Source: Actinomycetota bacterium (GTDB lineage Bacteria > Actinomycetota > Acidimicrobiia > IMCC26256 > PALSA-610). From it: DNA of 39,412 nt. Shown one piece after another: positions 4,241 to 38,753 of the stretch. The notes beneath the pieces were generated by a model, which ran no database searches, was not told the origin of the DNA, and was given only the letters and a program-made list of their open reading frames with translations. Where the stretch lies: assembly GCA_003134555.1 (NCBI GenBank), contig PLBO01000111.1, forward strand, positions 1 through 39,412. The letters are read 5' to 3'. The stretch's first letter is position 1. Every line of letters begins with the position of its first letter. Made by a program: the position numbers and the translations under genes.

Positions 4241-4714
4241 ATGAGCGAGTACCTCCCGATCCTGGTGATGGCCGCGCTCGTCGTCGCGTTCGTGATGCTG
4301 TCGTTCATAGCGTCGCAGCTGCTCGCGCCACAACGTCCGAACTCGGCCAAGCAGGCCCCGTACGAGTGCGGGATCGTGCCCGAGCAGGAGCCCGCGGAGC
4401 GCTTTCCGGTCAAGTTCTATCTCGTCGCGATGAGCTTCATCGTGCTCGACGTCGAGATCGTCTTCCTCTATCCGTTCTCGGTCGTGTTCCGCGGCCTGGG
4501 TGCGTTCGGTCTGTTTGCAATGGCCACGTTCGTGCTCACGTTGCTCGTTCCGTTCGCGTACCTGCTGTCGGTCGGCGCCCTCGAGTGGGGGCCGGTGCGC
4601 GACGTGCTCGAACGGTTGCCCGGCCCGCTGTTGCGCACGAACGCTGCGGTGTACGACCCCACCGGCGACGACGCGGATGTCGACGAAGCCCGGCCCGACG
4701 TCGAGGCGGCCTGA
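4241..4714 (+). CDS. nuoA: NADH-quinone oxidoreductase subunit A (operon 1)
   Basis: NuoA is a small three-helix membrane subunit of complex I near the quinone tunnel. Seen: the YECG motif (about residues 45-48) on the first cytoplasmic loop and [12 protein letters not shown] in the second helix, both family signatures. At 157 residues it is longer than the usual 115-125 because of a hydrophilic, acidic C-terminal extension (from about residue 128). A longer frame from 4187 exists, but ATG 4241 is chosen because it begins at the conserved N-terminus and follows the TAGCGT box by 8 bases. The stop overlaps the nuoB ATG as TGATG. First gene of a 14-gene operon. Confidence 0.95.
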
Positions 4715-5256
4715 TGGGTCTCGATCAGGTCCCGCACAACTTCGCGACCGCGCGTCTCGAAGACGTCGTGCGCTGGGGCCGGCGCAACTCCGTTTTTCCC
4801 GCCACGTTCGGTCTCGCCTGTTGCGCGCTCGAGATGATGGCGGCGGGTGCGGCGCACTACGACCTCGCTCGCTTCGGTATGGAGGTGTTCCGCGCCAGCC
4901 CGCGTCAAGCCGATCTCATGATCGTCGCGGGGCGCGTCTCGCAGAAGATGGCGCCGGTACTGCGGCAGGTGTACGACCAGATGGTCGAGCCGAAGTGGGT
5001 CATCTCGATGGGCGTGTGCGCGAGCAGCGGTGGAATGTTCAACAACTACGCGATCGTGCAAGGCGTCGACCAGATCGTTCCGGTCGACGTGTACGTGCCG
5101 GGCTGCCCGCCCGGGCCCGAAACCTTGATGCACGGCATCCTGACGTTGCACGAGCAGATCCGCACGGGTGAACTGCTGCAACGGCGTGAGGCGTCGCCGA
5201 CCGGCGGCGCGGGGATCGATCTCGGTCGCGAGCCCGCCGGGCTCCCGACTTCCTGA
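4714..5256 (+). CDS. nuoB: NADH-quinone oxidoreductase subunit B (operon 1)
   Basis: NuoB carries the terminal [4Fe-4S] cluster N2, which hands electrons to quinone. The four expected ligands are present: the adjacent pair C36-C37 (GLACCALE), C102 (GVCASSGG) and C131 (GCPPGPE). At 180 residues the length is normal, with a poorly conserved C-terminal tail of about 25 residues. ATG 4714 shares a base with the nuoA stop. NuoB docks with NuoC, NuoD and NuoI on the cytoplasmic side of the membrane arm. Confidence 0.96.
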
Positions 5257-5281: not shown

Positions 5282-5860
5282 ATGGCGGACGACACGGCTC
5301 GTGAAGAAGATCACGAGCCTGCGGTGAACGGCGACGAGTCCGTATCGGCGTCCGTAGGGGACGACGTCGCGGCCGCGGTCGTCGCGCGCTTTCCGGGATC
5401 GGTGTTCGTCGAGAGTCACGGCCAACCCGTCGTCTACGTCGACCGGTCGGTCATCGCCGACGTCGCCCGGTTGTTGCGCGACGAAGAGCAGTTCACGATG
5501 CTCATCGACACCGTGGTGGTCGACCATCTCCTCGACGGGTCGCGCGTGAGCATCGACGGCGTGACTCCCGAACGGTTCGAGGTCGTCGTCAATTTCCTGT
5601 CGCACGCGCGCAATCGCCGGATCCGTATCGTTTGCGAAGTGCCCGCTGCCGATCCGACGGTTCCGTCACTCACGCCGGTGTACCTCGGCGCCAACTATGC
5701 CGAGCGCGAGTCGTACGACCTGTTCGGCATCACGTTCGAGGGACATCCCGACCTGACGCGCATCCTCATGCCCGACGACTGGCACGGGCACCCGCTGCGC
5801 AAGGACGATGCCGCGGCCCGGGTTCCCGTGACCTTCAAAGGCGACCCGAGCCCGCGATGA
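5282..5860 (+). CDS. nuoC: NADH-quinone oxidoreductase subunit C (operon 1)
   Basis: A 192-residue NuoC (30-kDa subunit), a structural part of the quinone-reducing module. Seen: the family signature ERESYDLFGITFEGHPDL followed by RILMPDDWHGHPLRKD in the C-terminal third. The first 25 residues are acidic and variable. The 25-base gap from nuoB is one of the few non-overlapping junctions in the operon. ATG 5282 is preceded by an AAGG element. It ends in ATGA with nuoD, so the two are coupled and NuoC and NuoD are separate proteins, unlike the fused NuoCD of E. coli. Confidence 0.94.
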   Translation: MADDTAREEDHEPAVNGDESVSASVGDDVAAAVVARFPGSVFVESHGQPVVYVDRSVIADVARLLRDEEQFTMLIDTVVVDHLLDGSRVSIDGVTPERFEVVVNFLSHARNRRIRIVCEVPAADPTVPSLTPVYLGANYAERESYDLFGITFEGHPDLTRILMPDDWHGHPLRKDDAAARVPVTFKGDPSPR

Positions 5861-7149
5861 CCGACGCGTCGAGGAGGGAAGCGGAGCGCCTCGAGCGCCA
5901 GACCGACGAGGGCGCGCAGGAGCTGCGCCCGACGACGCGCGAGGTGGTGCTCGCGGGCGGCGGGATGTGGCCGCAGGACGATCTCGGCGACACGATGATC
6001 ATCAACATGGGCCCGCAGCACCCGTCGACGCACGGCGTGTTGCGCCTCATGATGGAGCTCGACGGCGAAGACGTCCTGCGCATCAAGCCCGTCATCGGTT
6101 ACCTCCACACCGGCATGGAGAAGACCGGTGAGGAGCTGACCTACGTGCAGGGCACGACGAACGTGACGCGCATGGACTACGCGTCGAACTTCGCCAACGA
6201 GCTCGTGTACTCGCTCGCGGTCGAGCGGCTGCTCGATGTCGAGGTGCCGGAGCGCGCGGTCTGGATCCGCATGATGATGTGCGAGCTCTCGCGCATGTCG
6301 TCGCATCTCCTGTTCCAGGCGACGAACGGCATGGACATCGGCGCGGTGTCGATGATCATCTACGGATGGCGCGAGCGCGAAGAGGTCTTGCGCTACTTCG
6401 AATACGTCACCGGGTTGCGCATGAACTGCAACTACATACGTCCCGGTGGCGTCGCGGCCGATCTTCCCGACGGTTGGCAGGCGCGTGTGCTCGACCTGTG
6501 CGACACGGTGGAGGCCGGCGTCGCCGAATACGACGAGCTCCTGTCGCAGAACCCGATCTGGCTGGAGCGCACCGTCGGCATCGGTGTCATCACCACCGAA
6601 GAGTGCCTCGATCGCAGCGTCACCGGACCGATACTGCGTTCGACCGGTTTCGCCTGGGACCTGCGAAAGGCGCAGCCGTACCTCGCTTACGACCAGGTCG
6701 ACTTCGACACGATCTACACGAACAACGGCGACGTCTACGACCGCTATCGCATCCGGCTCTACGAGATTCTCGAATCGGCGAAGATCGTGCGCCAGTGCGT
6801 GGAGAAGATGCCCACCGGCGACTACCGGGTGCAGGACAAGAAGCTCACACCGCCGCCGCGGGAACGAATCGACGAGTCGATGGAAGCGCTCATCCACCAC
6901 TTCAAGCTGTTCACCGAAGGTTTCAAGGTGCCGGCCGGGGAGACGTATGTGGCGGTCGAGTCGCCGCGGGGCGAGATCGGCTGCTACATGGTGAGTGACG
7001 GATCGAGCAAGCCCGTACGTATGCACATTCGGGGGCCCTCGTTCTACAACCTGCAATCGATCGATCCGATGGGGTCCGACAGCCTGGTCGCCGACGCGGT
7101 CGCAATCGTTTCGAGCATCGACCCGATCATGGGTGAGGTGGACCGGTGA
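5857..7149 (+). CDS. nuoD: NADH-quinone oxidoreductase subunit D (operon 1)
   Basis: A 430-residue NuoD (49-kDa subunit) that forms the quinone site with NuoB. Seen: GPQHPSTHGVLRL (residues 52-64) with the quinone-binding His, Tyr96 in ELTYVQ matching the conserved quinone Tyr, and an intact C-terminal GEVDR. Position 85, in GYLHTGMEK, is Thr, as I recall for Thermus Nqo4. At the matching position, mitochondrial NDUFS2 and the NuoD of operon 2 have Arg. An N-terminal extension of about 45 charged residues precedes the conserved core. ATG 5857 overlaps the nuoC stop. Confidence 0.96.
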   Translation: MTDASRREAERLERQTDEGAQELRPTTREVVLAGGGMWPQDDLGDTMIINMGPQHPSTHGVLRLMMELDGEDVLRIKPVIGYLHTGMEKTGEELTYVQGTTNVTRMDYASNFANELVYSLAVERLLDVEVPERAVWIRMMMCELSRMSSHLLFQATNGMDIGAVSMIIYGWREREEVLRYFEYVTGLRMNCNYIRPGGVAADLPDGWQARVLDLCDTVEAGVAEYDELLSQNPIWLERTVGIGVITTEECLDRSVTGPILRSTGFAWDLRKAQPYLAYDQVDFDTIYTNNGDVYDRYRIRLYEILESAKIVRQCVEKMPTGDYRVQDKKLTPPPRERIDESMEALIHHFKLFTEGFKVPAGETYVAVESPRGEIGCYMVSDGSSKPVRMHIRGPSFYNLQSIDPMGSDSLVADAVAIVSSIDPIMGEVDR

Positions 7150-22185: not shown

Positions 22186-22548
22186 GTGACCGAGTTCTAC
22201 AGGCAGTATCTCGCCGTCGCGGTCTTCGTTCTGGCCGCATTCCTGATGGTCGGTGCGATGCTCGGCGTGGCGCGTCTCTTGCGCCCGAAGGTCCCGCAGG
22301 ACGAGAAGTACATCACCTACGAGTCGGGCTCCGACCCGCTGCCGTTGTTCGGCCAGATGAACGTCCGTTATTACATCTACGCCCTGCTTTTCGTGATCTT
22401 CGACGTCGAAGCCGTGTTCATCTTCCCGTGGGCCGTGAACGTCGAGGGCCTGGGGTGGTTCGGGCTGGTCGAGATGAGCGCATTCGTCGCAGTGCTCCTC
22501 CTCGGGCTGGCGTACGTCTGGCGGAAGGGGCTCTTGCGGTGGGCCTAG
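22186..22548 (+). CDS. nuoA: NADH-quinone oxidoreductase subunit A (operon 2, NdhC-like)
   Basis: A 120-residue three-helix NuoA of normal length. Where operon 1 NuoA has YECG, this copy has YESG, followed by [30 protein letters not shown]. The YESG form and the [17 protein letters not shown] pattern resemble NdhC of cyanobacterial and chloroplast NDH-1. It begins an 11-gene operon. GTG 22186 is preceded by GGAAG. Its last ten bases overlap the nuoB2 start. Confidence 0.95.
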
Positions 22549-23048
22549 TCAGTTCGGGCAAAACACCGAAACCGCTCCAACACCTCCTGAACTACAGCCG
22601 TAAGTACTCGCTGTGGATGCTGCAGTGGGGTCTCGCGTGCTGCGCGATCGAGATGGGCGCCGCGCTCGCGGGCCCGCGCTACGACGTGATGCGCCTCGGC
22701 GTGATCCCGTTCCCGGCGAGTCCGCGCCAGGCCGACCTCATCGTCATCTCGGGAACCGTCACCGACAAGATGGCGCCGGCGATCAAGCGTCTCTACGAGC
22801 AGATGCCCGACCCGAAGTACGTCATCTCCATGGGTTCGTGCGCGAATTGCGGCGGTCCCTACTGGGACTCGTACTCGGTCACGAAGGGCGTCGACCAGAT
22901 CATCCCCGTCGACGTCTATGTCCCCGGATGCCCACCCCGACCCGAGGCGTTCATCCAGGGGATCGTGCTGTTGCAGCAGCGCATCATGAGCGAAGACCCG
23001 GCCGAGCGTTGGCGCGGCGCGACGCGGGAGCCGATCGTCGTTGGCTGA
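22539..23048 (+). CDS. nuoB: NADH-quinone oxidoreductase subunit B (operon 2)
   Basis: A 169-residue NuoB with the cluster N2 ligands C34-C35 (GLACCAIE), C101 (GSCANCGG) and C131 (GCPPRPE). C104 in GSCANCGG is an additional cysteine absent from the operon 1 copy. GTG 22539, with AAGGGG 8 bases upstream, overlaps the end of nuoA2 by 10 bases. The far upstream open frame is antisense to the patatin gene and is not used. Confidence 0.95.
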
Positions 23049-23715
23049 CGAAGCCGCGACCGAAGCGGTGCCCGCGCTGCGCGAGCAGGCGGTCGACGCG
23101 CTCGCACGTCTGCAGTCAGAACTGGGAGACGCGATCGTCGAGCACGGCGCCGCGTTCGGCGACGTCGTCGTGCGGGTGCGACGCGACGCGTGGCGCCGCA
23201 GCGCGCAGGTCTGCAAGGAGCAGCTCGGCTGCGACTACCTCTCGTTCATCGGCGGCATCGACTGGATGCCCACCCCCGCGGTCGCCGAAGAGGGTTCGGG
23301 CGACACGTCGACGCCCGCGCAGCCGAAGGAACAGACCTACGGGACCGCGGGGAGCGACGGCCGGTATCAACTGCTCGCGCTCGTCGAGTCGACGCGGCGC
23401 AAGAGCTGGCGCGTGATCCTGAAAACCGATCTCCCCGACGGCGACCTGCACGCGGAGTCGTGGGTGTCGGTGTATCCGGGCGCCGATTGGCACGAGCGCG
23501 AAGCGTGGGAGATGTACGGCTTCGTGTTCGACGGTCATCCGAGCCTGCGGCACCTCTATCTCCCATCGGAGTTCGAGGGGCATCCGCTGCGCAAGGACTA
23601 CCCGTTGCTCGCGCGCGAGGTGAAACCCTGGCCGGGGTTGGTCGACGTCGAGCCCATGCCCGGTGCGGCGACCGACGGTGACGGCGACGCCGAAGGCGCG
23701 GGTGAAACCGAGTGA
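23041..23715 (+). CDS. nuoC: NADH-quinone oxidoreductase subunit C (operon 2)
   Basis: A 224-residue NuoC, about 30 residues longer than the operon 1 copy. Seen: [20 protein letters not shown] and [17 protein letters not shown] in the C-terminal half, the family signature. A low-complexity Gly/Ser/Thr/Pro/Glu insert lies near residues 80-100, between two core strands. It starts with TTG 23041, overlapping the nuoB2 stop, with a GGGAG site upstream, and ends in GTGA with nuoD2. Confidence 0.92.
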
Positions 23716-24908
23716 CGACCACCGACCTACCGCCGCCGGGCGAGCTTCCCGAGATCGCCGTCGACCCGGCCGCGTTCCGCCACCTCGCCGACGCGCAGGT
23801 GAACGTCGAGCTCGACACCGGCGACATGGTGCTGAACATCGGCCCGCAGCACCCGGCCACGCACGGAACGTTGCGCCTCGTCGTACGCCTCGACGGAGAG
23901 CGAGTGGTCTCGGCCGACCCGATCATCGGTTACATGCACCGCGGCTACGAGAAGCTGACCGAGTTCCGCACCTACCCGCAGATCACCACGCTCATCAATC
24001 GCATCGACTGGCTGTCGTCGTTCGCGAACGAGGTCCCGTTCATCGACGCGGCCGAACATCTGATGGCGATCGAAGCCCCGCCGCGCGCGCAGTACTTGCG
24101 GACGATCCTGACCGAGCTGTCGCGCATCGCCACCTTCGTGCTGTTCCTCGGCGAGATGGGGCTGCAGGTCGGCGCGATCACCCCCGCGTTCTACGGATTC
24201 CGCGACCGCGAGTACGTGCTGAACCTCATCGAGGCGGTCACCGGCGGTCGGTTCCACCCGAACTTCAACCGCATCGGCGGCATCAAGGACGACCTGCCGT
24301 GGGGTTGGATCTCGGAATGCCGCGGTGTGATGAACAAGGTGCTCGCGTCGTGCGACGAGTTCGACGACCTCGTCGTCGGCAACCCGATCTTCCAGAAGCG
24401 CACGCGTTCCATCGGCATCATCCCGCAGGAGCTCGGCGCCGCGTACGGCGTGTCGGGTTCGAACCTGCGGGCGTCGGGCGTCGACTGGGACCTGCGGCGC
24501 GACGGTCCGAAGTACCTCGTCTACGACGAGCTCGACTGGCAGGTCTGGACGCACCCCGACGGCGACTCGTTCGCGAGGTACTGGGTGCGCCTGCAGGAGA
24601 CGCGTGAGTCGGCGCGCATGGTGCTGCAGATGCTCGACCAGATGCCCAGCGGTCCGCTGATGGCGAAGGTGCCGCGCATCATCAAGGTTCCCGCGGGCGA
24701 GGTGTTCGTCAACACCGAGAACCCGCTCGGCGAGATGGGTTACTACGTGATCTCGAAGGGCGCGACCGGTCCCTTCCGCACCAAGATCCGCAGCGCGTCG
24801 TTCAGCAACGTCTCGATCCTGCCGTGGCTGCTCCGCGGCGTGTACGTGCCCGACATCGTCACCATCCTCGCGAGCCTGTACTTCATCCTCGGAGACATCG
24901 ACCGGTGA
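23712..24908 (+). CDS. nuoD: NADH-quinone oxidoreductase subunit D (operon 2)
   Basis: A 398-residue NuoD. Seen: [15 protein letters not shown] (residues 44-58) with the quinone-site His, Tyr88 in EFRTYPQ matching the quinone-binding Tyr, and the C-terminal GDIDR. Arg77 in GYMHRGYEK (codon 23940-23942) aligns with Arg85 of mature bovine NDUFS2, the residue dimethylated by NDUFAF7 in mitochondria; operon 1 NuoD has Thr there. A methyltransferase of that family is encoded at the end of this operon. GTG 23712 overlaps the nuoC2 stop. Confidence 0.95.
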
Positions 24909-25948
24909 TCTCGCTCGACGTCGGTTGGGGAACCACTCTCGCCATCAAGACGGTCGTCGTGCTCGGCATCGTGCCGCTCACCGCGCTCATTCTCGGCTAC
25001 GTCTTCCTGCTGAAGATGATGAGCCACATGCAGAGCCGGCTCGGTCCCATGGACCCGGGCGGTTTCCACGGCTGGTACCAACTGATCGGCGACGGCATCA
25101 AGTTCCTCCAAAAGGAGGACATCACGCCGGCCGAAGCCGATCGCCGCGTGTTCGCGCTCGCGCCCGCGATCGTCGTGCTGTCGACGTTCCTCGTGTTCGT
25201 CGTCATCCCCGCGGGTCCGCGCGTCGCCGTGGCCTCGCTCGACTCGAAGTCGGCGTTCGACGGTGTGGGCGTGTTCTACGCACTCGCCGTCTCGTCCCTG
25301 TCGGTCATCGGTGTGTTGATGGCCGGGTGGGCCAGCTCGAACAAGTACGCGCTGCTCGGCGCGCTGCGGGCCGCGGCCCAGCTCATCGCGTACGAGCTCC
25401 CGCTCGTGCTCGCGGTCGTCGGTGTGGTGATCCAAACCGGCACGATGAGCCTGCAGGGCATTGTGAGCTTCCAGCAGAACGGTTCGCTCTTCGGCTGGAG
25501 CGGCCTCGGCTTCCCGCTCATCCTCACGCAGTTCGTCGGCTTCGCGCTCTTCATGGTCGCCGCGCAGGCGGAGCTGACCCAGCCACCGTTCGACATGCCG
25601 GTCGCGGAATCGGAGCTCGTCGCCGGCTACATGGTCGAGTACACCGGATTCCGGTTCCTGTTCTTCTTCATCGGGGAGTTCGGCACCGCGTTCGCGTTCG
25701 CCGCGCTCGCCGCCACCATGTTCCTCGGTGGTTGGTCGGTTCCGTGGGTACACGGCACCGCGGCCGACTTCCTCGGGCCCGTGGTGCTCTTCGCCAAGGT
25801 GATGTTCGTCGCGTTCTTGATGTTCTGGGCGCGCTTCACCTACCCGCGTTTTCGTGAAGACCAGCTGCAGGCGATCGCGTGGAAATGGCTCATCCCGATC
25901 GCGTTGGCGAACATCCTCGCAACGGGCGTATTGAAGGTGGCGTTCTGA
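24905..25948 (+). CDS. nuoH: NADH-quinone oxidoreductase subunit H (operon 2)
   Basis: A 347-residue NuoH (ND1) with about eight helices. Seen: [23 protein letters not shown], a variant of the usual NRIGPNRVGP loop, and [19 protein letters not shown] with [20 protein letters not shown] 24905 overlaps the nuoD2 stop as GTGA. Downstream, its TGA overlaps the ATG of a nine-codon mini-ORF that leads to nuoI2. Confidence 0.94.
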
Positions 25949-25977
25949 TGGGCGGGCAGATGGGCGGGAAGCGATGA
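25948..25977 (+). CDS. Nine-codon mini-ORF bridging nuoH2 and nuoI2
   Basis: ATG at 25948 shares its A with the nuoH2 TGA, the frame reads MGGQMGGKR, and its TGA (25975-25977) overlaps the nuoI2 ATG (25974). It restores the stop-start overlap used at nearly every other junction across what would otherwise be a 25-base gap. It may serve only to carry ribosomes to nuoI2. Whether the peptide matters, or is translated at all, is unknown. Confidence 0.35.
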
Positions 25978-26456
25978 AGCGCGAGATCAAGGGCATGCTC
26001 ACGGGCCTCGGCGTCACGTTCCGCACGATGATGAAGCCCGCGGTGACGGTCCAGTATCCGCACGAGCGGGAAGACCCGGCGCCGCGCGCCCGCGGTGTGA
26101 TCGCGCTCAAGGAGGAGAACTGCACGGTGTGCATGCTGTGCGCACGCTCGTGCCCCGACTGGTGCATCTACATCGAGGGCCACAAGGAGCAACGCCCGCC
26201 GCGCCGCGAAGGTGGTCGGCCCCGCAGCGTCAGTCTTCTCGACCGGTTCGACATCGACTACGCGCTGTGCATGTACTGCGGCATCTGCGTCGAGGTGTGT
26301 CCGTTCGACGCGTTGTTCTGGAGCCCCGAGTTCGAGTATTCCGAAACCCGGATCGCCGACCTGCTCCACGACAAGTTCAAGCTCGGCGAGTGGATGGCGT
26401 CGGTGCCCGAGCCCGAGCCGCTCGAGATGGGCGCCGAGGTGAAGGGCAAGAAATGA
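25974..26456 (+). CDS. nuoI: NADH-quinone oxidoreductase subunit I (operon 2)
   Basis: A 160-residue ferredoxin-like subunit with two [4Fe-4S] ligand sets: C50, C53, C56, C60 ([11 protein letters not shown]) and C99, C102, C105, C109 ([11 protein letters not shown]). A basic Pro/Arg-rich insert (residues 71-86) separates them. In the absence of NuoE, F and G this subunit would be the entry point for electrons, as in ferredoxin-dependent NDH-1, where NdhI binds ferredoxin. ATG 25974 has a GGGAAG element just upstream. Confidence 0.94.
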
Positions 26457-26944
26457 TCGCGGAGAACGTGGTCTTCGGGATCATCGCGGCGGCGATGGCG
26501 CTGGGCGCGATCGGCGTCGTGCGCACGAAGAACGTCGTGCACGCCGCGCTCTATCTCGTGGTCGTTCTCGCGGGCGGCGCCGCGCAATTCATCTTGCTCG
26601 GCCAGGAGTTCGTCGCGTGGGTGCAGGTGCTCGTCTACATCGGCGCGGTGATCGTCCTGTTCCTGTTCGGCATCATGTTGACCCGAGCCCCGATGCACCC
26701 GAAGGACTCGCTCGACAACGACCTCCGCTGGCCGGCGGCCGTCACCTCGCTCTTCTTGGTGGGGATCCTCGTCGGTCTGCTCGTGCACACGTTCCACGCC
26801 GACAAGGTCGACGTGCAGAGGCCCGTCCGCACGGCCGACGTCACCAGCTCGATCTTCACGACCTACATCGTCCCGTTCGAAGTCGTCGGCGTTCTCCTCC
26901 TCGGCGCGCTGATCGGCGCGGTAGTCCTGGCGCGGAAGGACTAG
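26453..26944 (+). CDS. nuoJ: NADH-quinone oxidoreductase subunit J (operon 2)
   Basis: A 163-residue NuoJ (ND6) with five helices. The conserved third helix reads [21 protein letters not shown]. It is shorter than the operon 1 copy because it lacks the soluble C-terminal tail. ATG 26453 overlaps the nuoI2 stop as ATGA. Confidence 0.93.
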
Positions 26945-26947
26945 GGG

Positions 26948-27247
26948 ATGCTGCTCAACGAGTTCCTGATCCTCGCCGCGTTCCTGTTCTGCACCGGGGT
27001 GTACGGCGTGCTCGCGCGCAAGCACGCGGTGCTCGTGCTCATGAGCATCGAGCTCATGCTCGCGGGCGTGAACATCAACCTCGTGGCGTTCGGCGCGTTC
27101 CACAACAGCGACATCGGTCAGGTCTTCGCGCTTTTCGTGCTCACGATCGCCGCGGCCGAGGTCGGGATCGGGCTCGCGATCGTCCTGCTCATCTACCGCA
27201 ATCTGCACAGCGCCGACCTCGACGACGTCGACAGCTTGAAGGGCTAA
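26948..27247 (+). CDS. nuoK: NADH-quinone oxidoreductase subunit K (operon 2)
   Basis: A 99-residue NuoK (ND4L). The buried proton-path glutamates are E35 (MSIELMLAGVNI) and E71 (IAAAEVGIGL), one position from E36 and E72 of E. coli. Three helices are visible. It ends DDVDSLKG, like the operon 1 copy. A GGAAGG site lies upstream of ATG 26948. Confidence 0.94.
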   Translation: MLLNEFLILAAFLFCTGVYGVLARKHAVLVLMSIELMLAGVNINLVAFGAFHNSDIGQVFALFVLTIAAAEVGIGLAIVLLIYRNLHSADLDDVDSLKG

Positions 27248-27254
27248 CGGGCGG

Positions 27255-29426
27255 ATGTTCTTTCTCGACCAGGCGTGGCTCGTCCCGCTGATCCCGGCGA
27301 TCTCGTTCGTCGTGATCCTGCTGTTCGGCAAGCGCATGCCGCGCCAGGGTTCCGAGGTCGGAGTCGTCGCGGTCGGCGCCTCCTTCCTGCTTTCTTGTGG
27401 CGCGGTGGTGCGCTGGATCCTCCGGGTCCACGACGCCGAGGGTGGTTCCGCGCTCGGCGCGTTCGGTCGCAGCATCGGTCGGATCGGCGCCGATCATGCC
27501 GAGGTACCGGTCCTGCCCGTCCTGCACCACGTTACCTGGTTCCAGAACGGCGGAGTGCGCCTGACCGCAGGCATCCAGATCGACGGGCTCGCGGTGGTGA
27601 TGATGTTCGTCGTCACCCTGATCTCGCTACTGGTGCACGTGTACTCGCTGGAGTACATGCGGGGCGATCGCCGCTTCACGTACTTCTACGCGGCGCTCTC
27701 GCTCTTCACCGCGTCGATGCTGCTGTTGGTCGTGGCCGACAACACCCTGCAACTCCTCGTCGGCTGGGAGCTCGTCGGTGTGTGCTCGTTCATGCTGATC
27801 GGCCACTGGTGGGAGGAGAAGCCGAACAGCGACGCGGCGTTGAAGGCGTTCCTCACCACGCGTACCGGCGACATCGGTTTGCTCACCGGCGTGATCATGA
27901 CGTTCTTCATCGTGCAACGCGCGACCGGTGTCGGCTCGTTCAACATCGTCGCGCTGAACCAGGCCGTCTCCGACCCGAGCTCGAAGGTGGGCCACACGCT
28001 CATCTTGTGGTGCGCGGCGGCGTTGATGCTCGCGATCGTCGGCAAGTCGGGCCAGTTCCCGCTCCACACCTGGTTGCCCGACGCCATGGCCGGTCCGACT
28101 CCGGTGTCGGCGCTGATCCACGCCGCGACGATGGTCGTGGCGGGCGTCTATCTCGGCGCGCGCGTCTATCCGGTCTTCTTCCACGGGTTCTCGATCGGTG
28201 ACGGCGGGGTCAACCCCATGGCCGCGATCGGCGGGATCACCGTGATCGTCGGGGCCTTGCTGGCGTTCGTGCAGGACGACATCAAGAAGGTGCTCGCGTA
28301 TTCCACGATCAGCCAGCTGGGATACATGGTGATGGCGCTCGGCGTGGGCGCGTGGACGGCGGCGGTGTTCCATCTCTTCACCCACGCATTCTTCAAGGCC
28401 GACCTCTTCCTCGGCGCCGGGTCGGTGAGTCACTCGGGATCGCACCACTCGTTCGACATGAAGACCGACATGGGCGGACTGAAGAAGTACATGCCGCAGA
28501 CGTACAAGACGTTCGTGATCGGCACGCTCGCCCTCGCGGGGATCTTCCCCCTCGCCGGCTTCTGGTCGAAGGACGAGATCCTGGTCAATGCCGGCCACAA
28601 CAACTACAAGCTCTTCCTCGTCATCGGTCTGGTCGGCGCGTTCATGACCGCGGCCTACATGACACGATGCGTCTACCTGACGTTCCACGGCGAGTACCGC
28701 GGCGGTCACGAGCCGCACGCGATCCCGCACGTCGACGAGGCCGAGCACGATCCCATCGACACGCCGGCGTCGGTCGAGCACGACGCGGAGGTGCACCCGC
28801 CGCACGAGAGCAACCGTCTGTTGACCGGTCCGCTCTGGGTGCTGTCGTTCTTCGCGGTGTTCGCGGGCTTCTTGAACTTCCCGCACTTCAGCCGGTTCGA
28901 GAAGTGGTTCCAGCCGCGCTATCCGGCCGGGTTCGCCGAGATCCTGCACCCGGTCGCGTTCAATCCGATCCTCGCGACGGTCTCGGTCCTGATCGCGGGC
29001 GCGGGAATCGGGATCGCGTCTGCCTACTACCTCGGGAAGTTGCCGCAGGGGCTCAGTGAGCGCAACGCGATTGCTCGTGCGGGCAAGCGTTTCCTCGTCA
29101 ACAAGTACTACCTCGACTACGTGTACGAGAACGTGATCGTGGCCGGGATCAAGGGCCCGATCTCGACCGGGGTGTACTGGTTCAATCAGAACGTCATCGA
29201 CAACGTTCTCAACTACACGGGGCGCGGCGCGCAAGCCCTCGGTCGCGCGACCTACGAATACGTCGATCAAAAAGGCGTCGACGGTTTGGTGAACGGCATC
29301 GCGACGCTCACGGGTGAGTCCGGCGGCGAGGTGCGCAAGATCCAGACCGGTCGCCTCCAGTTCTACGCACTCGTGCTCGTCGCGGCCGTCGTCATCTTCG
29401 CCGGCGTCCTCTGGATCTCCACCTAG
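27255..29426 (+). CDS. nuoL: NADH-quinone oxidoreductase subunit L (operon 2)
   Basis: A 723-residue NuoL (ND5), about 60 residues longer than the operon 1 copy. Seen: the channel Glu172 in GWELVGVCSFMLIG, GKSGQFPLHTWLPDAMAGPTP, and DDIKKVLAYSTISQLGYM. The C-terminal part has KYYLDYVYENVIV and GVDGLVNGIA leading into the last helix, as expected for the lateral helix. A hydrophilic loop at about residues 480-515 contains seven histidines among many Asp and Glu. An additional luminal or external loop sits near residues 60-95. Confidence 0.95.
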   Translation: MFFLDQAWLVPLIPAISFVVILLFGKRMPRQGSEVGVVAVGASFLLSCGAVVRWILRVHDAEGGSALGAFGRSIGRIGADHAEVPVLPVLHHVTWFQNGGVRLTAGIQIDGLAVVMMFVVTLISLLVHVYSLEYMRGDRRFTYFYAALSLFTASMLLLVVADNTLQLLVGWELVGVCSFMLIGHWWEEKPNSDAALKAFLTTRTGDIGLLTGVIMTFFIVQRATGVGSFNIVALNQAVSDPSSKVGHTLILWCAAALMLAIVGKSGQFPLHTWLPDAMAGPTPVSALIHAATMVVAGVYLGARVYPVFFHGFSIGDGGVNPMAAIGGITVIVGALLAFVQDDIKKVLAYSTISQLGYMVMALGVGAWTAAVFHLFTHAFFKADLFLGAGSVSHSGSHHSFDMKTDMGGLKKYMPQTYKTFVIGTLALAGIFPLAGFWSKDEILVNAGHNNYKLFLVIGLVGAFMTAAYMTRCVYLTFHGEYRGGHEPHAIPHVDEAEHDPIDTPASVEHDAEVHPPHESNRLLTGPLWVLSFFAVFAGFLNFPHFSRFEKWFQPRYPAGFAEILHPVAFNPILATVSVLIAGAGIGIASAYYLGKLPQGLSERNAIARAGKRFLVNKYYLDYVYENVIVAGIKGPISTGVYWFNQNVIDNVLNYTGRGAQALGRATYEYVDQKGVDGLVNGIATLTGESGGEVRKIQTGRLQFYALVLVAAVVIFAGVLWIST

Positions 29427-29444
29427 GCAAGGGGAATCAGCTCG

Positions 29445-31067
29445 ATGAATTGGTTCGACTCCTGGGCGTTGACCCTCGTGGTCTTCATACCGGCCATCGG
29501 CGCGGTCATTTTGATGCTCATACCGCGCGAGCAGGAAGACGCGATCAAAGAGGTCACGCTCTTCACGACCCTCGCCACGCTGGGCTTCACGATCGGCACC
29601 CTCATCAAGTTCGACTACGGCCGGACGAGCACACTGCAGTTCAGCGTCGACAAGAACTGGATCGACGTCATCAACAGCCACTACCACGTGGCGGTCGACG
29701 GCATTTCGCTCCCGATGCTCGCGTTGTCGTCGTTCATCACGGTGTTGTGTGTCATCTACTCGTGGAACCATTTCCCCGAGCCGCACAACCCCAAGGCCTT
29801 CCTCATCCTGTTGCTCATCCTCGAGGTCGGGATGAACGGAACGTTCGTCGCGCAGGACCTCATCCTGTTCTTCATCTTCTTCGAGATTGTGCTGCTCCCC
29901 ATGTTCTTCATGATCGGGGTGTGGGGCGGTCCCAACCGTGAGTACGCGTCGATCAAGTTCTTCCTGTTCACCCTGTTCGGCTCGGCGCTGATGCTGCTGT
30001 CGTTCCTGGCGCTCTATTTCAAGGTCGACGTCCCGGGCGTCGGGCACACGTTCGACATGGTGTTGCTCTCGAAGGCCGCGGGCGCCGGACTGGTGCACAG
30101 CACCCAGCTCCTGATCTTCGGTGGCTTGTTCATCGGCTTCGCGATCAAGGTGCCGATGTTCCCCTTCCACACCTGGTTGCCCGATGCGCACACCGAGGCG
30201 CCGACCGTCGGGTCGGTGCTCTTGGCGGCGATCCTGCTGAAGCTCGGCACGTACGGGTTCATCCGCATCGCGCTCCCGATCCTTCCGGAGGCCGCGAAGA
30301 GCTGGGCGCCGTGGATCGGCCTGCTGTCGGTGATCGGCATCATCTACGGCGCGCTCGGCTGTCTCGCGCAAACCGACATGAAGCGTTTGATCGCCTTCTC
30401 GTCGGTGGCGCACATGGGTTTCGTGATGCTGGGAATCTCCACACTCACGACCTTCGGTATCAACGCCGCGATCTTCGGGATGGTGGCGCACGGCCTCATC
30501 ACCGGCATGTTGTTCTTCATCGCGGGGTCGGTGCAGCACAACTACGGCACCCGCGAGCTCTCGCGGCTCGGTGGATTGCTCAAGCAGGCACCGAAGATGG
30601 GCTGGATCCTCGGCTTCTGCGCGATGGCAAGCCTCGGACTCCCCGGGCTCGCGGGATTCTGGGGCGAGTTCCCGGCCGTCCTGTCGACCTTCAACCCCGG
30701 CGGCGATCTCTCGCAGCCGCTTTTCCGCACCTACATGGTCATCGCCGCGATCGGCACCGTCCTCGCGGCCGGCTACCTGCTCTGGATGTTGCAGAAGGTC
30801 GCGTTCGGCACACCGAAGCCGGAGTTCGCCGACGCGCACATCCACGACGTGACGACGTACGAGTGGACGGCCTGGGTACCGATCCTCTTGCTGATCGTCG
30901 CGCTCGGCATCTTCCCGAACATCATCTTCCGGGTCACCGACGACGCAGTGGCCTGTCAGACCGCGGCGCCATTCGTGTCGAAGACCACCGTTCCGATTTC
31001 GCCGTCGGTCAAGTGCCCGGCGTCGCCGTTGGCGGCGCAGACGACCGCGAAGGTCTCCGGGCGCTGA
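29445..31067 (+). CDS. nuoM: NADH-quinone oxidoreductase subunit M (operon 2)
   Basis: A 540-residue NuoM (ND4) with about 14 helices. Seen: the channel Glu147 in FFEIVLLPMFFMI and IKVPMFPFHTWLPDAHTEAPT. After the last helix comes a 45-residue Thr/Ser/Pro/Ala-rich tail with two cysteines (in VACQT and VKCPA), not seen in the operon 1 copy. ATG 29445 follows an AAGGGG element after an 18-base gap from nuoL2. Confidence 0.95.
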   Translation: MNWFDSWALTLVVFIPAIGAVILMLIPREQEDAIKEVTLFTTLATLGFTIGTLIKFDYGRTSTLQFSVDKNWIDVINSHYHVAVDGISLPMLALSSFITVLCVIYSWNHFPEPHNPKAFLILLLILEVGMNGTFVAQDLILFFIFFEIVLLPMFFMIGVWGGPNREYASIKFFLFTLFGSALMLLSFLALYFKVDVPGVGHTFDMVLLSKAAGAGLVHSTQLLIFGGLFIGFAIKVPMFPFHTWLPDAHTEAPTVGSVLLAAILLKLGTYGFIRIALPILPEAAKSWAPWIGLLSVIGIIYGALGCLAQTDMKRLIAFSSVAHMGFVMLGISTLTTFGINAAIFGMVAHGLITGMLFFIAGSVQHNYGTRELSRLGGLLKQAPKMGWILGFCAMASLGLPGLAGFWGEFPAVLSTFNPGGDLSQPLFRTYMVIAAIGTVLAAGYLLWMLQKVAFGTPKPEFADAHIHDVTTYEWTAWVPILLLIVALGIFPNIIFRVTDDAVACQTAAPFVSKTTVPISPSVKCPASPLAAQTTAKVSGR

Positions 31068-31068
31068 C

Positions 31069-32583
31069 GTGCTGTCTGCCGCGACCGTTCACATCGCGAC
31101 GCCCGCCTTCGATTGGCACGCGTTCGCCCCCGACCTCGTGCTCGTCGCGACGATGGTCGTGGTGCTCGTCGCGGATCTGCTGTTGCCCGACCGCGAGTCG
31201 TGGCGCACGTCGAGCATCGCCGCGGTCGGCCTGCTCGGCGCGCTGGTTCCGATCGCGACGTTGGTGCACTCCGGGCACGACCGAAACCTGTTCAACGGGG
31301 CGTACGTCGTCGACCACTACGCGCTTGCCTTGAAGGCCTTCTTCATCATCGCGACGTACATCACCGTGTTGCTGTCGGTCGACTACATCCGCGAGGGCGA
31401 CTACTACAAGGGCGAGTTCTACTTCCTGCTGCTGGTGTCGACGTTCGGCATGAGCATCATGGCAAGTTCGCGCGATCTCATCTCGTTGTTCGTCGCGCTC
31501 GAGACGATATCGATTCCCACCTTCGTGCTCGCGACCTTTCGCAAGCACGATCGCGCCTCGAACGAAGCGGGCGTGAAGTACTACCTGATCGGGGTTCTGT
31601 CGTCGGCGTTGATGCTGTACGGGATGTCACTCATATATGGCGTCACCGGCGCCACCAAGTTGTCGGACATCGCCGCGTACATGTCGCAGCACGGGACGGT
31701 TCCCCTGGTCGCGGTCGCGATGTTCCTCTCGCTCGTCGGGTTCGCGTTCAAGGTCAGCGCGGTGCCCTTCCATTTCTGGGCCCCGGACACCTACGAAGGC
31801 GCACCCACACCAGTGACCGCGTTCCTGTCGGTCGCTTCCAAAGCCGGCGGGTTCGTCGCGCTGATCAACATCGTGTACTTCGGCTTCTTCTTGCCGAACG
31901 GTCGCGCCGCCGACTCGTGGTGGCCGGTGCTCTGGGTGCTCGCGGCGTTGTCGATGACACTCGGCAACCTCGTCGCGCTCCGCCAGACCAACATCGTGCG
32001 CATGCTGGCGTACTCGTCGGTGGCGCAGGGTGGGTTCATGCTCGTCCCGTTCGCGGCGGCCGGCATCGCCGGCGCCGACGGTCATCCGGGCAAGGCCGCG
32101 GCGGCGATGAGCGCAGTTGTCATTTACCTGTTGATCTACGGCGCGATGAACCTGGGCGCGTTCGCGGTCGTGATCGCGGTCGCGAGGCGCACGCGCAGTG
32201 CCGAAATCTCCTCGTACGACGGATTGTGGGAGATCGCCCCCGGTCTTGCGGTCGTGATGGGGATCTTCCTCGCCTCCCTCGCCGGTGTCCCGTTCTTCGC
32301 GGGCTGGTTCGCCAAGTTCGTGATGTTCCGGGCGATCATCGACGCCGGTACCGGCTGGGCGATCGCGCTGGGCATCATCGCGGCGGTCAACTCGGTGATC
32401 GCGTTCTTCTATTACGCCCGCCCGATCCGGGCGATGATCTTCCACGCGCCCACGACCGAAGACCGCACCCCGATCGTCATTCCCCAGCCGCTCTTTGCCG
32501 CGATCGCCCTGACCGTTTCGGTAGTCGTGGTCGTCGGCATCTACCCGCAGGTCTTCGCCCGGGTCGGAGAGCTCGCGTTCTGA
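31069..32583 (+). CDS. nuoN: NADH-quinone oxidoreductase subunit N (operon 2)
   Basis: A 504-residue NuoN (ND2). Seen: FVALETISIPTFVLATF with the conserved Glu, GFAFKVSAVPFHFWAPDTYEGAPTP, and NIVRMLAYSSVAQGGFML. It is the last nuo gene of operon 2. GTG 31069 follows the nuoM2 stop by one base. The methyltransferase gene begins 22 bases after its stop. Confidence 0.95.
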   Translation: MLSAATVHIATPAFDWHAFAPDLVLVATMVVVLVADLLLPDRESWRTSSIAAVGLLGALVPIATLVHSGHDRNLFNGAYVVDHYALALKAFFIIATYITVLLSVDYIREGDYYKGEFYFLLLVSTFGMSIMASSRDLISLFVALETISIPTFVLATFRKHDRASNEAGVKYYLIGVLSSALMLYGMSLIYGVTGATKLSDIAAYMSQHGTVPLVAVAMFLSLVGFAFKVSAVPFHFWAPDTYEGAPTPVTAFLSVASKAGGFVALINIVYFGFFLPNGRAADSWWPVLWVLAALSMTLGNLVALRQTNIVRMLAYSSVAQGGFMLVPFAAAGIAGADGHPGKAAAAMSAVVIYLLIYGAMNLGAFAVVIAVARRTRSAEISSYDGLWEIAPGLAVVMGIFLASLAGVPFFAGWFAKFVMFRAIIDAGTGWAIALGIIAAVNSVIAFFYYARPIRAMIFHAPTTEDRTPIVIPQPLFAAIALTVSVVVVVGIYPQVFARVGELAF

Positions 32584-32605: not shown

Positions 32606-33748
32606 GTGAGTCCGGTCGCCGCTCATCTCGCCCAGTTGATCCACCGTGAAGGGCCGATCACGTTCGATCGGTTCATGGAGGTCGCCCTCTACGGAGAGGG
32701 TGGCTTCTTCGCGACGGGCCACGGCGCGGGCCGGTCCGGGCGCGACTTCGTCACGAGTCCCGAGGTCGGTCCGCTGTTCGGTGCCTGTGCCGCGCGCGCG
32801 CTCGACCGGCTGTGGCGCGCCCTCGACGAGCCCGACCCCTTTCTCGTCGTCGAAGCGGGAGCCGGCAACGGTCGCCTCGCGCGCGAGGTGCTGCGCGCCG
32901 CGCCCGCGTGTCTGCCCGCGCTGCGGTACGTGCTCGTCGAGCGGTCGGCCGCGCTGCGCGCCGAGCAACGCGAGCGACTCGCGCTGGAACCGGCCGACGA
33001 GGCGCTCGGGCCGTTCGTACGGCGCACCAACGAGGACGAGGCCGTGCCCGCGCTGTCGGCCGGGCCGGTGTTCACCGCGCTCGAGGAGCTACCCGCGCTC
33101 TCGGCCAACGGCACCGTCGTGATCGCGAACGAGCTGCTCGACAACCTGCCCTTCGGGATCGCGCAGTGGGACGGACGGCGTTGGCTCGAGGTGCGGGTCG
33201 GCCTGCGCGGACCCGATCGGTTCGAGGAGGTGCTCGTGCCGACCGACGCCGACCTCGGTTACTCCGTACCGCCGGGTACCCGCGTTCCGATCCCGCGAGG
33301 TATGGAGGAATGGTGGCGCGCGTGCGACGGGGTGGTGCAGCACGGCTTCGTGCTCGTCATCGACTACGCGACGGCGATGGCCGAGCTCGGTTCCCGGCCG
33401 TGGCTGCGTACGTATCGGGCGCATGCGATCGGCACCGATCCGTTGGACGCGCCGGGCGAGCAGGACATCACGGCCGACGTCGTGCTCGAGCAGCTGGATA
33501 CCACTGCCCCGTTCCCGCGCGTGCGCACCGACCGGCAGGCCGATTGGCTGCGCGCGCTCGGCATCGACGAGCTCGTGGACGAGGGCCGCCGCACGTGGGA
33601 AGCGGGCGCGGAGCGCGGCGACATCGAAGCGCTCGCGGGGCGCAGCCGCGCGACCGAAGCCGCCGCGCTCACCGACCCCGGCGGTCTCGGCGCGCACTGC
33701 GTCCTCCTGTTCGGCGCCGGCGGCGCCGGAGGCGCCTTCACGTGGTGA
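32606..33748 (+). CDS. MidA/NDUFAF7-family SAM-dependent methyltransferase (DUF185)
   Basis: A 380-residue class I methyltransferase of the DUF185 family (MidA; human NDUFAF7). Seen: the family block GRDFVTSPEVGPLFG (about residues 45-59), the SAM-binding loop VVEAGAGNGRLA (81-92), ERSAALRAEQ, and NELLDNLPFG (175-184) corresponding to the NELLDALP motif. In mitochondria NDUFAF7 symmetrically dimethylates an Arg of NDUFS2 and is needed for complex I assembly. Here the gene starts at GTG 32606, 22 bases after nuoN2, with no visible promoter or terminator between, so it looks like the twelfth gene of operon 2. The natural target would be Arg77 of the operon 2 NuoD (inference). Confidence 0.88.
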   Translation: MSPVAAHLAQLIHREGPITFDRFMEVALYGEGGFFATGHGAGRSGRDFVTSPEVGPLFGACAARALDRLWRALDEPDPFLVVEAGAGNGRLAREVLRAAPACLPALRYVLVERSAALRAEQRERLALEPADEALGPFVRRTNEDEAVPALSAGPVFTALEELPALSANGTVVIANELLDNLPFGIAQWDGRRWLEVRVGLRGPDRFEEVLVPTDADLGYSVPPGTRVPIPRGMEEWWRACDGVVQHGFVLVIDYATAMAELGSRPWLRTYRAHAIGTDPLDAPGEQDITADVVLEQLDTTAPFPRVRTDRQADWLRALGIDELVDEGRRTWEAGAERGDIEALAGRSRATEAAALTDPGGLGAHCVLLFGAGGAGGAFTW

Positions 33749-33754
33749 GGTGAC

Positions 33755-33760
33755 TAGCCT
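33755..33760 (+). promoter_or_regulatory. Likely leaderless -10 box (TAGCCT) for acs
   Basis: TAGCCT ends 8 bases before the acs ATG at 33769, the same spacing as at nuoA. It suggests acs has its own promoter rather than depending on operon 2. Confidence 0.45.
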
Positions 33761-33768
33761 CCGCGTGC

Positions 33769-35724
<1,956 letters not shown>

Positions 35725-35772
35725 CGCGTTCTGCCGTACTTCCCGGAGCACTGGACATGGAAAGCGGGGCCC

Positions 35773-36219
35773 GTGGTCCCGGCGCGGGCGGTCGTCGTCG
35801 ACATCGACGGTGTGCTCTCCGACGCGTCACTCCGGCAGCACTACCTCGAGTCGCCGCGCCAGGACTGGCGTGCCTTCTTCGAGGCGTGCGGCGAAGACCC
35901 GGTGATCGAGGAGGTGCACAGGCTGCTCGATCTCCTCGACCCCGGGCTACAGATCGTGCTGCTCACCGCCCGGCCGCACCGGGTCGAGTACCTGACCGAG
36001 GCCTGGCTCCGGCGGTACGACATCCGCTGGGACCTCTTGATCATGCGGCCGTGGGGCGACTACGAGCTGGCGCGCGACTTCAAGCAGTCGACCGTCTGGG
36101 AGCTGCGCTCGGCCGGGTTCGAGCTCGCGCTCGCCTTCGAGGACGACCGACGCAACGTGGCCATGTTCCGGTCCGAGGGCATCCCGTGCCTCTACGTCCA
36201 CTCGGGTTACTACGACTGA
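35773..36219 (+). CDS. HAD-like phosphatase domain protein
   Basis: A 148-residue protein with HAD-superfamily motifs: VVVDIDGVLSDAS (Asp10 and Asp12 as nucleophile and acid/base), LLTARPHR with the motif II Thr, and AFEDDRRNVAMF with the acidic motif IV. The order and short length resemble the phosphatase domain of T4-type polynucleotide kinases and acid-phosphatase-like HADs. No kinase domain is attached. GTG 35773 is the only standard start before motif I; the frame also runs upstream to the acs stop, so an unusual CTG start is possible. Substrate unknown. Confidence 0.7.
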   Translation: MVPARAVVVDIDGVLSDASLRQHYLESPRQDWRAFFEACGEDPVIEEVHRLLDLLDPGLQIVLLTARPHRVEYLTEAWLRRYDIRWDLLIMRPWGDYELARDFKQSTVWELRSAGFELALAFEDDRRNVAMFRSEGIPCLYVHSGYYD

Positions 36220-36233
36220 CCTCGCGGGTACGC

Positions 36234-36252
36234 CGCCTGCGCAGCGCAGGTG
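36234..36252 (+). other. Small hairpin after the HAD-like gene
   Basis: CCTGCG, loop CAG, then CGCAGG (36236-36250), extended by a G-T and a C-G pair. No T-tract follows, so it is not a standard intrinsic terminator. The rest of the 100-base gap before htpX holds only the htpX ribosome-binding site. Confidence 0.3.
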
Positions 36253-36319
36253 ATTCGCAGCCACCTCTCAGGCATTTCTGGTTCCATACCGATGTTCTCC
36301 GATCCGGAGGTAACACGGA

Positions 36320-37186
36320 ATGTTCAAGAACAACGTCAAGACGGTCGTGCTGCTGACTGCGCTCGCCGCGCTCTTCATGGGTGTTGGCGCCTTCTTCGGC
36401 CAGGGCGGCTTCATCATCGGGCTCATCCTGGGGATCGTCTTCGTGGGCGGCTCCTACTGGTTCTCCGACAAGATCGCGGTCCGCGCTGCGGGCGCGGTTC
36501 CGGTCTCGGAAGCCGACGCACCGCAGCTCTACGCGATCGTGCGCGACCTGACGCAGCGCTCGGGCATGCCCATGCCGGCGGTCTACATCAGCCCCGCTTC
36601 CCAACCGAACGCGTTCGCCACGGGCCGCAACCAGGAGCACGCGGCGGTCGCGGTGACGCAGGGCCTGCTCCAGGTCCTCGACCAGGAGGAGCTCCGCGGC
36701 GTGCTCGCACACGAGCTCTCGCACGTGCGCAACCGCGACATCCTCATCGGGTCGGTCGCCGCCGCGGTGGCGCTCGGGATCACCTTCCTCGCCCGCATGC
36801 TGATGTGGGGCGCCCTGCTCGGCGGTGTGGGCGGGAACAACCGGAACGGCGAAGGCGGCAACATCTTCGGCCTGATCGCGATGATGATCTTCGCCCCGGT
36901 GGCGGCGGCGCTGCTGCAGATGGCGCTCTCGCGCTCGCGTGAGTTCGAGGCCGACCGCAGCGGCGCGGAGTTATTGGGCACCGGCGAGCCGCTCGCGCGC
37001 GCGCTCGAGAAGATCGAGGCGTACGCGAAGCAGATCCCGATGAACGTCGACCCCGCGCTCGCGACCGCCTACATCATCAACCCGCTCACCGGCCGCAAGG
37101 CGAACTTCGCGAACCTGTTCCGCACGCACCCGCCGACGGAAGAGCGCATCGCTCGCCTCCGTCACCAGCACACGCACATGCACTGA
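36320..37186 (+). CDS. htpX: HtpX-family membrane zinc metalloprotease
   Basis: A 288-residue M48-family protease of the inner membrane, expected to degrade misfolded membrane proteins. Seen: two N-terminal helices (about residues 7-26 and 29-48), the zinc-binding HELSH at 131-135, two further helices (145-165 and 180-203), and the third ligand Glu208 in SREFEADRSG. Residues 170-182 form a Gly/Asn-rich loop. The protein ends in a His-rich HQHTHMH. ATG 36320 follows a strong GGAGG site. It is convergent with yajQ, with overlapping hairpin sequence at the two stop codons. Confidence 0.93.
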   Translation: MFKNNVKTVVLLTALAALFMGVGAFFGQGGFIIGLILGIVFVGGSYWFSDKIAVRAAGAVPVSEADAPQLYAIVRDLTQRSGMPMPAVYISPASQPNAFATGRNQEHAAVAVTQGLLQVLDQEELRGVLAHELSHVRNRDILIGSVAAAVALGITFLARMLMWGALLGGVGGNNRNGEGGNIFGLIAMMIFAPVAAALLQMALSRSREFEADRSGAELLGTGEPLARALEKIEAYAKQIPMNVDPALATAYIINPLTGRKANFANLFRTHPPTEERIARLRHQHTHMH

Positions 37187-37745: not shown

Positions 37746-37828
37746 GGGTCGGTACCCGAGTGGCCAAAGGGGATGGGCTGTAAACCCATTGCGTTACCGC
37801 TACGTTGGTTCGAATCCAACCCGGCCCA
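37746..37828 (+). tRNA. tRNA-Tyr (GTA)
   Basis: An 83-base class II tRNA. The acceptor GGGTCGG pairs with CCGGCCC (one G-U), the anticodon stem ATGGG/CCCAT holds loop CTGTAAA with anticodon GTA at 37780-37782, a long variable arm follows as expected for bacterial tRNA-Tyr, and the T arm is GTTGG-TTCGAAT-CCAAC. The 3' CCA is not encoded. A T-rich run (TTTCTTTTT) follows about 4 bases later and may end transcription. Confidence 0.97.
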
Positions 37829-37842
37829 CTGGGTTTCTTTTT

Positions 37843-37965
37843 CGCAGTCTTGCTTCGTGGCTCGCTGCGCTCGCGATATGAGGCTGCGCCTGCGGTCCGC
37901 GAGCTTCCGGCGCCCTTCGGGCTGCTCCGGGCGCGCCGCAAGAGCCACCGCGGAGCGCATGTTCC
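37843..37965. other. Intergenic stretch between tRNA-Tyr and the GNAT gene
   Basis: About 120 bases with no convincing gene. One inverted repeat, GCGCCC at 37910-37915 and GGGCGC at 37929-37934, could be a weak hairpin near the 3' end of the minus-strand acetyltransferase transcript. Confidence 0.3.
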
Positions 37966-38472: not shown

Positions 38473-38479
38473 GGAGGTG

Positions 38480-38485
38480 ACGCTA
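38480..38485 (-). promoter_or_regulatory. Likely leaderless -10 box (TAGCGT) for the GNAT gene
   Basis: TAGCGT on the minus strand ends 7 bases before GTG 38472, the spacing seen at other leaderless starts here. It decides between two in-frame starts. Confidence 0.45.
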
Positions 38486-38519
38486 CGCAACGGCAAGCCG
38501 GAGAGCCTGCCTGCTCGGC

Positions 38520-38525
38520 TAAACT
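38520..38525 (+). promoter_or_regulatory. Possible -10 box (TAAACT) for the tRNA-Thr/tRNA-Met/tuf cluster
   Basis: TAAACT matches the consensus at four of six positions and ends 11 bases before tRNA-Thr. No clear -35 is seen. It may drive both tRNAs and tuf. Confidence 0.35.
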
Positions 38526-38536
38526 CGTCGGGCTTC

Positions 38537-38609: not shown

Positions 38610-38642
38610 CGTTGGGGCAGGCCGAAGTGGTCTGCTTCGCAC

Positions 38643-38716: not shown

Positions 38717-38753
38717 CCCACCACACACCGGCAACACCCGAAGGTGACGCATC

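Follow-up and report, generated by a model that had tools for sequence, protein, structure and literature searches.

A MidA/NDUFAF7-type methyltransferase gene at the end of a second complex I operon and its association with Arg-type NuoD in Actinomycetota

Gene organization of the locus

The DNA analysed here is a stretch of 39,412 nucleotides (hereafter, the window), which is one contig of a 4.6-Mb draft genome (98% complete) whose closest named relatives are Acidimicrobiia MAGs. It contains two nuo operons. Operon 1 carries a 14-subunit nuo set (about 4.7-19.3 kb of the window) and operon 2 an 11-subunit set at 22186-32583 (nuoA, B, C, D, H, I, J, K, L, M and N), nuoE, nuoF and nuoG being absent from the gene content of this interval. 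The final nuo gene of operon 2 is separated from midA by 22 nt, with the end of nuoN2 at 32583 and the midA start codon at 32606. A first-pass annotation had reported a MidA/DUF185 gene 22 bases after nuoN2, together with an Arg in NuoD2 (MHRGYEK) and a Thr in NuoD1 (LHTGMEK); the gap, the PF02636 assignment and both codons were confirmed. The relevant features are as follows.

4711..5256, + strand: nuoB1 (start approximate); top PDB matches were the 8E9G NuoB chain and T. thermophilus Nqo6 (2FUG/4HEA)
4933..4935, + strand: Arg codon of NuoB1, aligned with T. thermophilus Nqo6 Arg83
5857..7149, + strand: nuoD1, Thr-type, in the 14-subunit operon (PF00346, 7e-113)
6109..6111, + strand: Thr85 codon of NuoD1 (GYLHTGMEK)
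22186..22548, + strand: nuoA2 (PF00507)
22545..23048, + strand: nuoB2, PSST homologue, start codon uncertain (PF01058, PDB NDUFS7 matches)
22755..22757, + strand: Thr codon of NuoB2, the switch counterpart of NuoD2 Arg77
23041..23715, + strand: nuoC2 (PF00329)
23712..24908, + strand: nuoD2, 49-kDa homologue, Arg-type, proposed substrate (PF00346, NCBIfam NuoD)
23940..23942, + strand: Arg77 codon of NuoD2 (GYMHRGYEK), proposed symmetric dimethylation site
24905..25948, + strand: nuoH2, start approximate (PF00146 in the ORF 24824-25948)
25974..31067, + strand: nuoI2, J2, K2, L2 and M2, assigned from the gene content of operon 2
31069..32583, + strand: nuoN2, final nuo gene of operon 2 (PF00361, TIGR01770)
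32606..33748, + strand: midA, DUF185/COG1565 class I SAM methyltransferase, NDUFAF7 homologue (380 aa, GTG start)
33769..35724, + strand: acetyl-CoA synthetase-like gene (PF00501), by synteny the usual downstream neighbour of midA in Acidimicrobiia and probably outside midA function

The midA product and its known relatives

The product of midA matched PF02636 (Methyltransf_28, that is, DUF185/MidA) at 1.1e-38, with 133.5 bits against a cut-off of 23.3, and no other PF02636 gene occurs in the genome, which is 98% complete. Among PDB entries, MidA proteins were the only ones related to the midA product in sequence (1ZKD, 4F3N/4G67 and Dictyostelium NDUFAF7 5ZTZ), the best match being 1ZKD, a DUF185 protein of Rhodopseudomonas palustris (E 2e-20). 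A structure search with the AlphaFold model (mean pLDDT 89) recovered six MidA chains (E 1.7e-22 to 3.5e-20, TM 0.72-0.75) before the next fold (E 5.4e-6, TM 0.34), so that the Dictyostelium, R. palustris and Burkholderia MidA structures were 14 orders of magnitude in E-value ahead of other methyltransferases. In the family alignment, the glycine-rich SAM motif VVEAGAGNGRL was present and the family-invariant residues E176, D179, D253, Y254, G284 and D287 were all kept. The gene beside the second complex I operon is very probably the bacterial form of human NDUFAF7.

In human cells, NDUFAF7 dimethylates Arg85 of NDUFS2, and its knock-down harms complex I assembly (PMC3829151). Symmetric dimethylation of the corresponding Arg is found in cow, human, Pichia and Paracoccus denitrificans; E. 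coli has the Arg, but without modification (PMC3750175). For bacterial MidA, and for activity of the Dictyostelium enzyme in vitro, a review refers to Shahul Hameed et al. 2018 (PMC9006661). The protein described here shares with human NDUFAF7 and Dictyostelium MidA (5ZTZ/5ZU0) the PF02636 domain, the fold and a target Arg in the HRGxEK motif of NuoD/NDUFS2. In contrast with these systems, the predicted enzyme is encoded inside an actinobacterial 11-subunit nuo operon, and the same cell also encodes another complex I, in which the site is Thr. P. denitrificans also has a bacterial Arg-type NuoD, in which Nqo4 Arg65 was found to be symmetrically dimethylated by mass spectrometry (PMC3750175), but in our genome the Arg occurs only in the 11-subunit paralogue and the 14-subunit NADH-oxidising complex has Thr.

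The Arg/Thr site of NuoD and its partner in NuoB

Arg77 of NuoD2 is equivalent to bovine Arg85 and Yarrowia Arg121 (PMC3750175, PMC8042128), and Yarrowia Arg121 mutants lose cluster N2 (PMC8042128). In Thermus, Thr is found at the NuoD site and Nqo6 Arg83 occupies the same space, which was described as an 'intersubunit residue switch' (PMC8042128). Both operons of the window are reciprocal in this sense: NuoD1 Thr is paired with NuoB1 Arg, and NuoD2 Arg with NuoB2 Thr, the switch region of NuoB2 resembling mitochondrial NDUFS7. Operon 1 therefore has the Thermus thermophilus form and operon 2 the Yarrowia form (PMC8042128), with the difference that here the two forms are paralogues in a single genome. 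Among 149 Actinomycetota genomes (the phylum sample described below), for which the switch residues were hand-transcribed from pattern matches, all 113 adjacent NuoD/NuoB pairs were reciprocal (67 Thr/Arg and 46 Arg/Thr), and the same pattern was seen by inspection across our survey of 58 genomes of the order. The description of NuoD1 as a 'built-in unmodifiable paralogue' in the first-pass annotation thus needs to be qualified. Thr does make the site unmodifiable, yet it is half of a known intersubunit switch with NuoB1 Arg; it has its own explanation and did not arise as a 'control'.

Linkage of midA to nuoN2 and to detached nuoD2

The adjacency of nuoN2 and midA, which had been expected to be conserved in relatives, was found in all 29 loci of the order besides the window, with nuoN2 immediately upstream of midA. 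We also collected 80 named Acidimicrobiia loci by MidA similarity, 76 of which had enough upstream sequence; nuoN2 lay no more than 400 nt from midA in 73 of these, and NuoD2, where visible, contained GYMHRGYEK (41 out of 41). Recurrence across the order and the class shows that this adjacency is not due to chance. It should be noted that these loci are related and were selected by similarity, and thus they were counted as one conserved arrangement. Three records (L111, L137 and L138) are titled Bifidobacterium breve and carry acidimicrobial nuo2-midA contigs; these titles are probably wrong.

More telling are the cases outside the class in which nuoD2 is detached from nuoB2. Fifteen such genomes were identified in three clades of the NuoD2 tree (three f41 genomes of 7.9-9.7 Mb, G116, G138, eight f30 and two f29 genomes), and in all of them the detached nuoD2 was the only Arg-type copy, located either on a different contig from nuoB2 or 129-320 kb away from it. 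In 14 of the 15, midA was on the same contig as nuoD2 and 0-7 kb from it. The arrangement differed among genomes: midA abutted nuoD2 co-directionally in G160, was convergent with it at 34-374 nt in G137, G179, G079 and G063, divergent in G077, located 1.9-2.8 kb upstream in G138 and G116, and convergent at 0.6-6.7 kb in the remaining ones. In the fifteenth genome (G159), the two genes were on separate contigs. The fact that orientation varies while proximity is kept points to nuoD2 and midA as a functional pair, in which the partner is NuoD2 rather than the whole operon. This result is stronger than anything foreseen from the window. On the other hand, midA was not near nuo in families f24 and f59.

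We take the f41 genomes to be Streptomyces, since a detached nuoD2 has been published for streptomycetes. The second nuo cluster of Streptomyces is likewise a set without the N-module, with nuoD2 apart from the rest (PMC8388888, PMC3765725), whereas nuoD2 of Acidimicrobiia remains inside the operon. A neighbouring midA is not mentioned in the parts of these papers that were consulted (PMC8388888, PMC3765725).

Co-occurrence of MidA with Arg-type NuoD

MidA was present in 52 of the 58 genomes of the order. To cover the phylum, we used 149 Actinomycetota genomes sampled evenly across it; scoring of Arg-type NuoD included HRA/HRS forms, six MidA-less and six MidA-positive genomes being assigned through protein searches. 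MidA was detected in 45 genomes, and 44 of them had Arg-type NuoD. It occurred in only one of 21 Thr-only genomes (G145) and in none of the 52 genomes without detected NuoD. The MidA-less genomes comprised 32 Arg-type, 20 Thr-only and 52 with no NuoD detected. The difference in MidA presence between Arg-type and Thr-only genomes gave a Fisher p of 9e-6, a value that ignores kinship. These data bear out the expectation that MidA tracks the Arg-type (HRG) rather than the Thr form of NuoD.

With kinship taken into account through the NuoD1 tree, 5.4 of 9 independent pairs showed a joint change of MidA and the Arg/Thr-only state, and 6.7 of 8 a joint change of MidA and non-Phe Arg-type NuoD2 (median p 0.016); opposite changes occurred in neither comparison. 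Joint absence of nuoD2 and midA was observed in genomes whose neighbours on the tree have nuoD2 (G028 beside G027, G112 beside G058, and G189 beside G116/G138). No specific co-divergence of MidA and NuoD2 could be observed: MidA distances correlated at 0.79 with NuoD1 and 0.79 with NuoD2, and partial correlations (0.30 and 0.31) gave no discrimination between them.

Individual genomes were inspected as possible exceptions. G145 (95% complete; L041, L069 and L070) has two MidA genes and only Thr-type NuoD; either its nuo2 operon was unassembled or lost, or its MidA has another substrate. G016, with two Thr-type NuoD and MidA, could be discarded as an exception: its midA follows a nuoN2, which implies that a nuo2 operon exists and that nuoD2 is unassembled. 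G191 (family f34; L211, G191:C498) carries an acidimicrobial-type nuo2-midA contig, with NuoD2 73% identical, beside a NuoD of its own, and is probably a chimeric bin.

Arg-type lineages without MidA

The first-pass annotation had cautioned, from the E. coli case, that Arg alone does not imply methylation. This caution was justified, as E. coli Arg is unmodified (PMC3750175) and the 32 Arg-type Actinomycetota genomes without detectable MidA indicate that Arg can work without MidA, as in E. coli. It is therefore suggested that Arg does not always need MidA for complex I assembly.

In most of the MidA-less Arg-type lineages examined, the residue at Arg+2 is Phe (HRGFEK, HRAFEK, HRSFEK or HRCFEK). 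MidA was missing with 18 of 19 Phe-type (HRxFE) NuoD as against 8 of 51 other Arg-type NuoD. According to the NuoD2 tree, this Phe was gained about four times, almost always in the opposite sense to MidA; the association of Phe with MidA absence comprised four independent pairs, almost all of which agreed with it, and these are too few for significance (p 0.125). HRxFEK, which is almost never accompanied by MidA, was seen in G066, G067, G070, G080, G081, G084, G092, G106, G128, G139, G150, G161, G180, G190 and G200 (loci L052-L059 and L182-L187); G096 is the exception that has HRxFEK together with MidA. It is possible that Phe compensates for missing methylation. However, the E. coli motif is HRGAEK and its Arg is unmodified, so that Phe would not be required. 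In G195, MHRGYEK was found without detected MidA, and its nuoD2 lies at a contig end.

Gene order was compared between the window (32606-37186) and L052, L053, L054, L058 and L059. In Acidimicrobiia the usual order is nuoN2-midA-acs-htpX, whereas in MidA-less lineages nuoN2 is usually followed by a gene for an HtpX-type peptidase, which suggests that midA was cleanly lost or inserted. As for a substitute for MidA at the nuo2 end of MidA-less Arg-type lineages, most loci examined had an HtpX-like M48 peptidase there and no methyltransferase was seen.

Proposed role of MidA and alternative explanations

On the basis of current results, midA is likely to encode an actinobacterial NDUFAF7, that is, a SAM-dependent arginine methyltransferase that symmetrically dimethylates Arg77 of NuoD2. 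The earlier suggestion that MidA may be dedicated to complex I no. 2 appears well supported at the genomic level; methylation of Arg77, its symmetric form and its role in cluster N2 and assembly are extrapolated from mitochondrial and Paracoccus work. In the proposed mechanism, MidA would be made from the nuo2 operon, the linkage co-producing enzyme and substrate. By homology, it would bind SAM and dimethylate Arg77 of newly made, unassembled NuoD2, and the modified side chain would pack against cluster N2 in NuoB2. NuoD1 could not be modified at its Thr85 site, nor would this be required, since an Arg is provided by NuoB1 from the opposite side.

Several alternatives were considered. First, the Arg/Thr split might be unrelated to methylation and reflect an old switch between two complex I lineages, with midA near the Arg-type form by chance. 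The switch is indeed perfect in all 113 pairs whether MidA is present or absent, FEK-type lineages retain Arg without MidA, and gene order is inherited vertically among close relatives. However, passive linkage fails to explain why midA stays beside nuoD2 after the latter left the operon, or why both genes are repeatedly absent together from genomes that are neighbours on the tree. We accept the old switch and reject the chance proximity of midA, which makes this explanation as a whole improbable. Second, the substrate of MidA might be a Nuo subunit other than NuoD, some other protein or DNA, MidA being either a general factor of complex I-2 or an unrelated enzyme. The two MidA genes of G145, which has no detected Arg-type NuoD, the unlinked midA of f24/f59 and a preliminary result on DNA methylation by Wolbachia MidA (PMC12455994) would fit such a role. 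It is even less probable than the first alternative, given that in the detached cases the neighbour of midA is nuoD2 and not nuoN2 or the residual operon, that the family has a defined Arg substrate in NDUFS2 of human cells (PMC3829151), and that genomes without detected NuoD lack MidA. Finally, a degenerate or chaperone-like MidA that assists assembly without methyl transfer, leaving Arg77 unmodified, could draw on E. coli working with an unmodified Arg (PMC3750175), but the kept SAM motif and invariant residues and the high-confidence MidA fold make it very unlikely.

Returning to MidA as the methyltransferase of NuoD2, a broader and more tentative hypothesis may be formulated: nuoD2-midA of Actinomycetota would be a two-gene modification module, kept together outside the operon and beside a paralogous complex I that met an equal structural demand with an Arg on NuoB, and Arg-type lineages without midA would have taken Phe at Arg+2 as an evolutionary bypass of methylation. 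A proteobacterial origin of MidA was reportedly proposed by Shahul Hameed et al. 2018. The best PDB sequence match of the window MidA is proteobacterial (R. palustris 1ZKD). The gene is, however, found widely among Actinomycetota and in linkage with the operon, and MidA methylation of NuoD would, if the hypothesis is true, be no proteobacterial peculiarity. A bacterial NDUFAF7 system as such is already known from the dimethylated Arg of P. denitrificans (PMC3750175), and thus is not new in itself; among the papers available to us, none on actinobacterial NuoD methylation was found. The novelty lies in two complex I paralogues of one actinobacterial cell that solve the problem in opposite ways, and in the nuoD2-midA pair, which persists through rearrangement. 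One cell with presumably methylated Arg on NuoD in one complex I and Arg on NuoB in the other would offer a built-in comparison, the effect of Arg dimethylation being otherwise hidden because replacing the Arg destroys cluster N2 (PMC8042128). Through the nuoD2-midA pair of genomes that appear Streptomyces-like, a test would be possible in easily manipulated laboratory strains with the 14-subunit complex I intact, and Arg-type lineages without MidA provide natural controls and a candidate compensating residue.

Other features of the window

Given the missing nuoE, nuoF and nuoG, ferredoxin or a shared N-module of operon 1 are candidate electron donors of complex I-2. At 22713-22715, the NuoB2 residue is Pro (FPASPRQ), in contrast to the Arg of NuoB1 and bovine PSST (FRASPRQ). 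In mammals this Arg is hydroxylated by NDUFAF5, and thus complex I no. 2 lacks this second modification site. Between both nuo operons there is a gene for a patatin-like phospholipase (21033-22142, - strand), and genes for tRNA-Tyr, tRNA-Thr and tRNA-Met are located 3' of the nuo/midA region (37746-38718).
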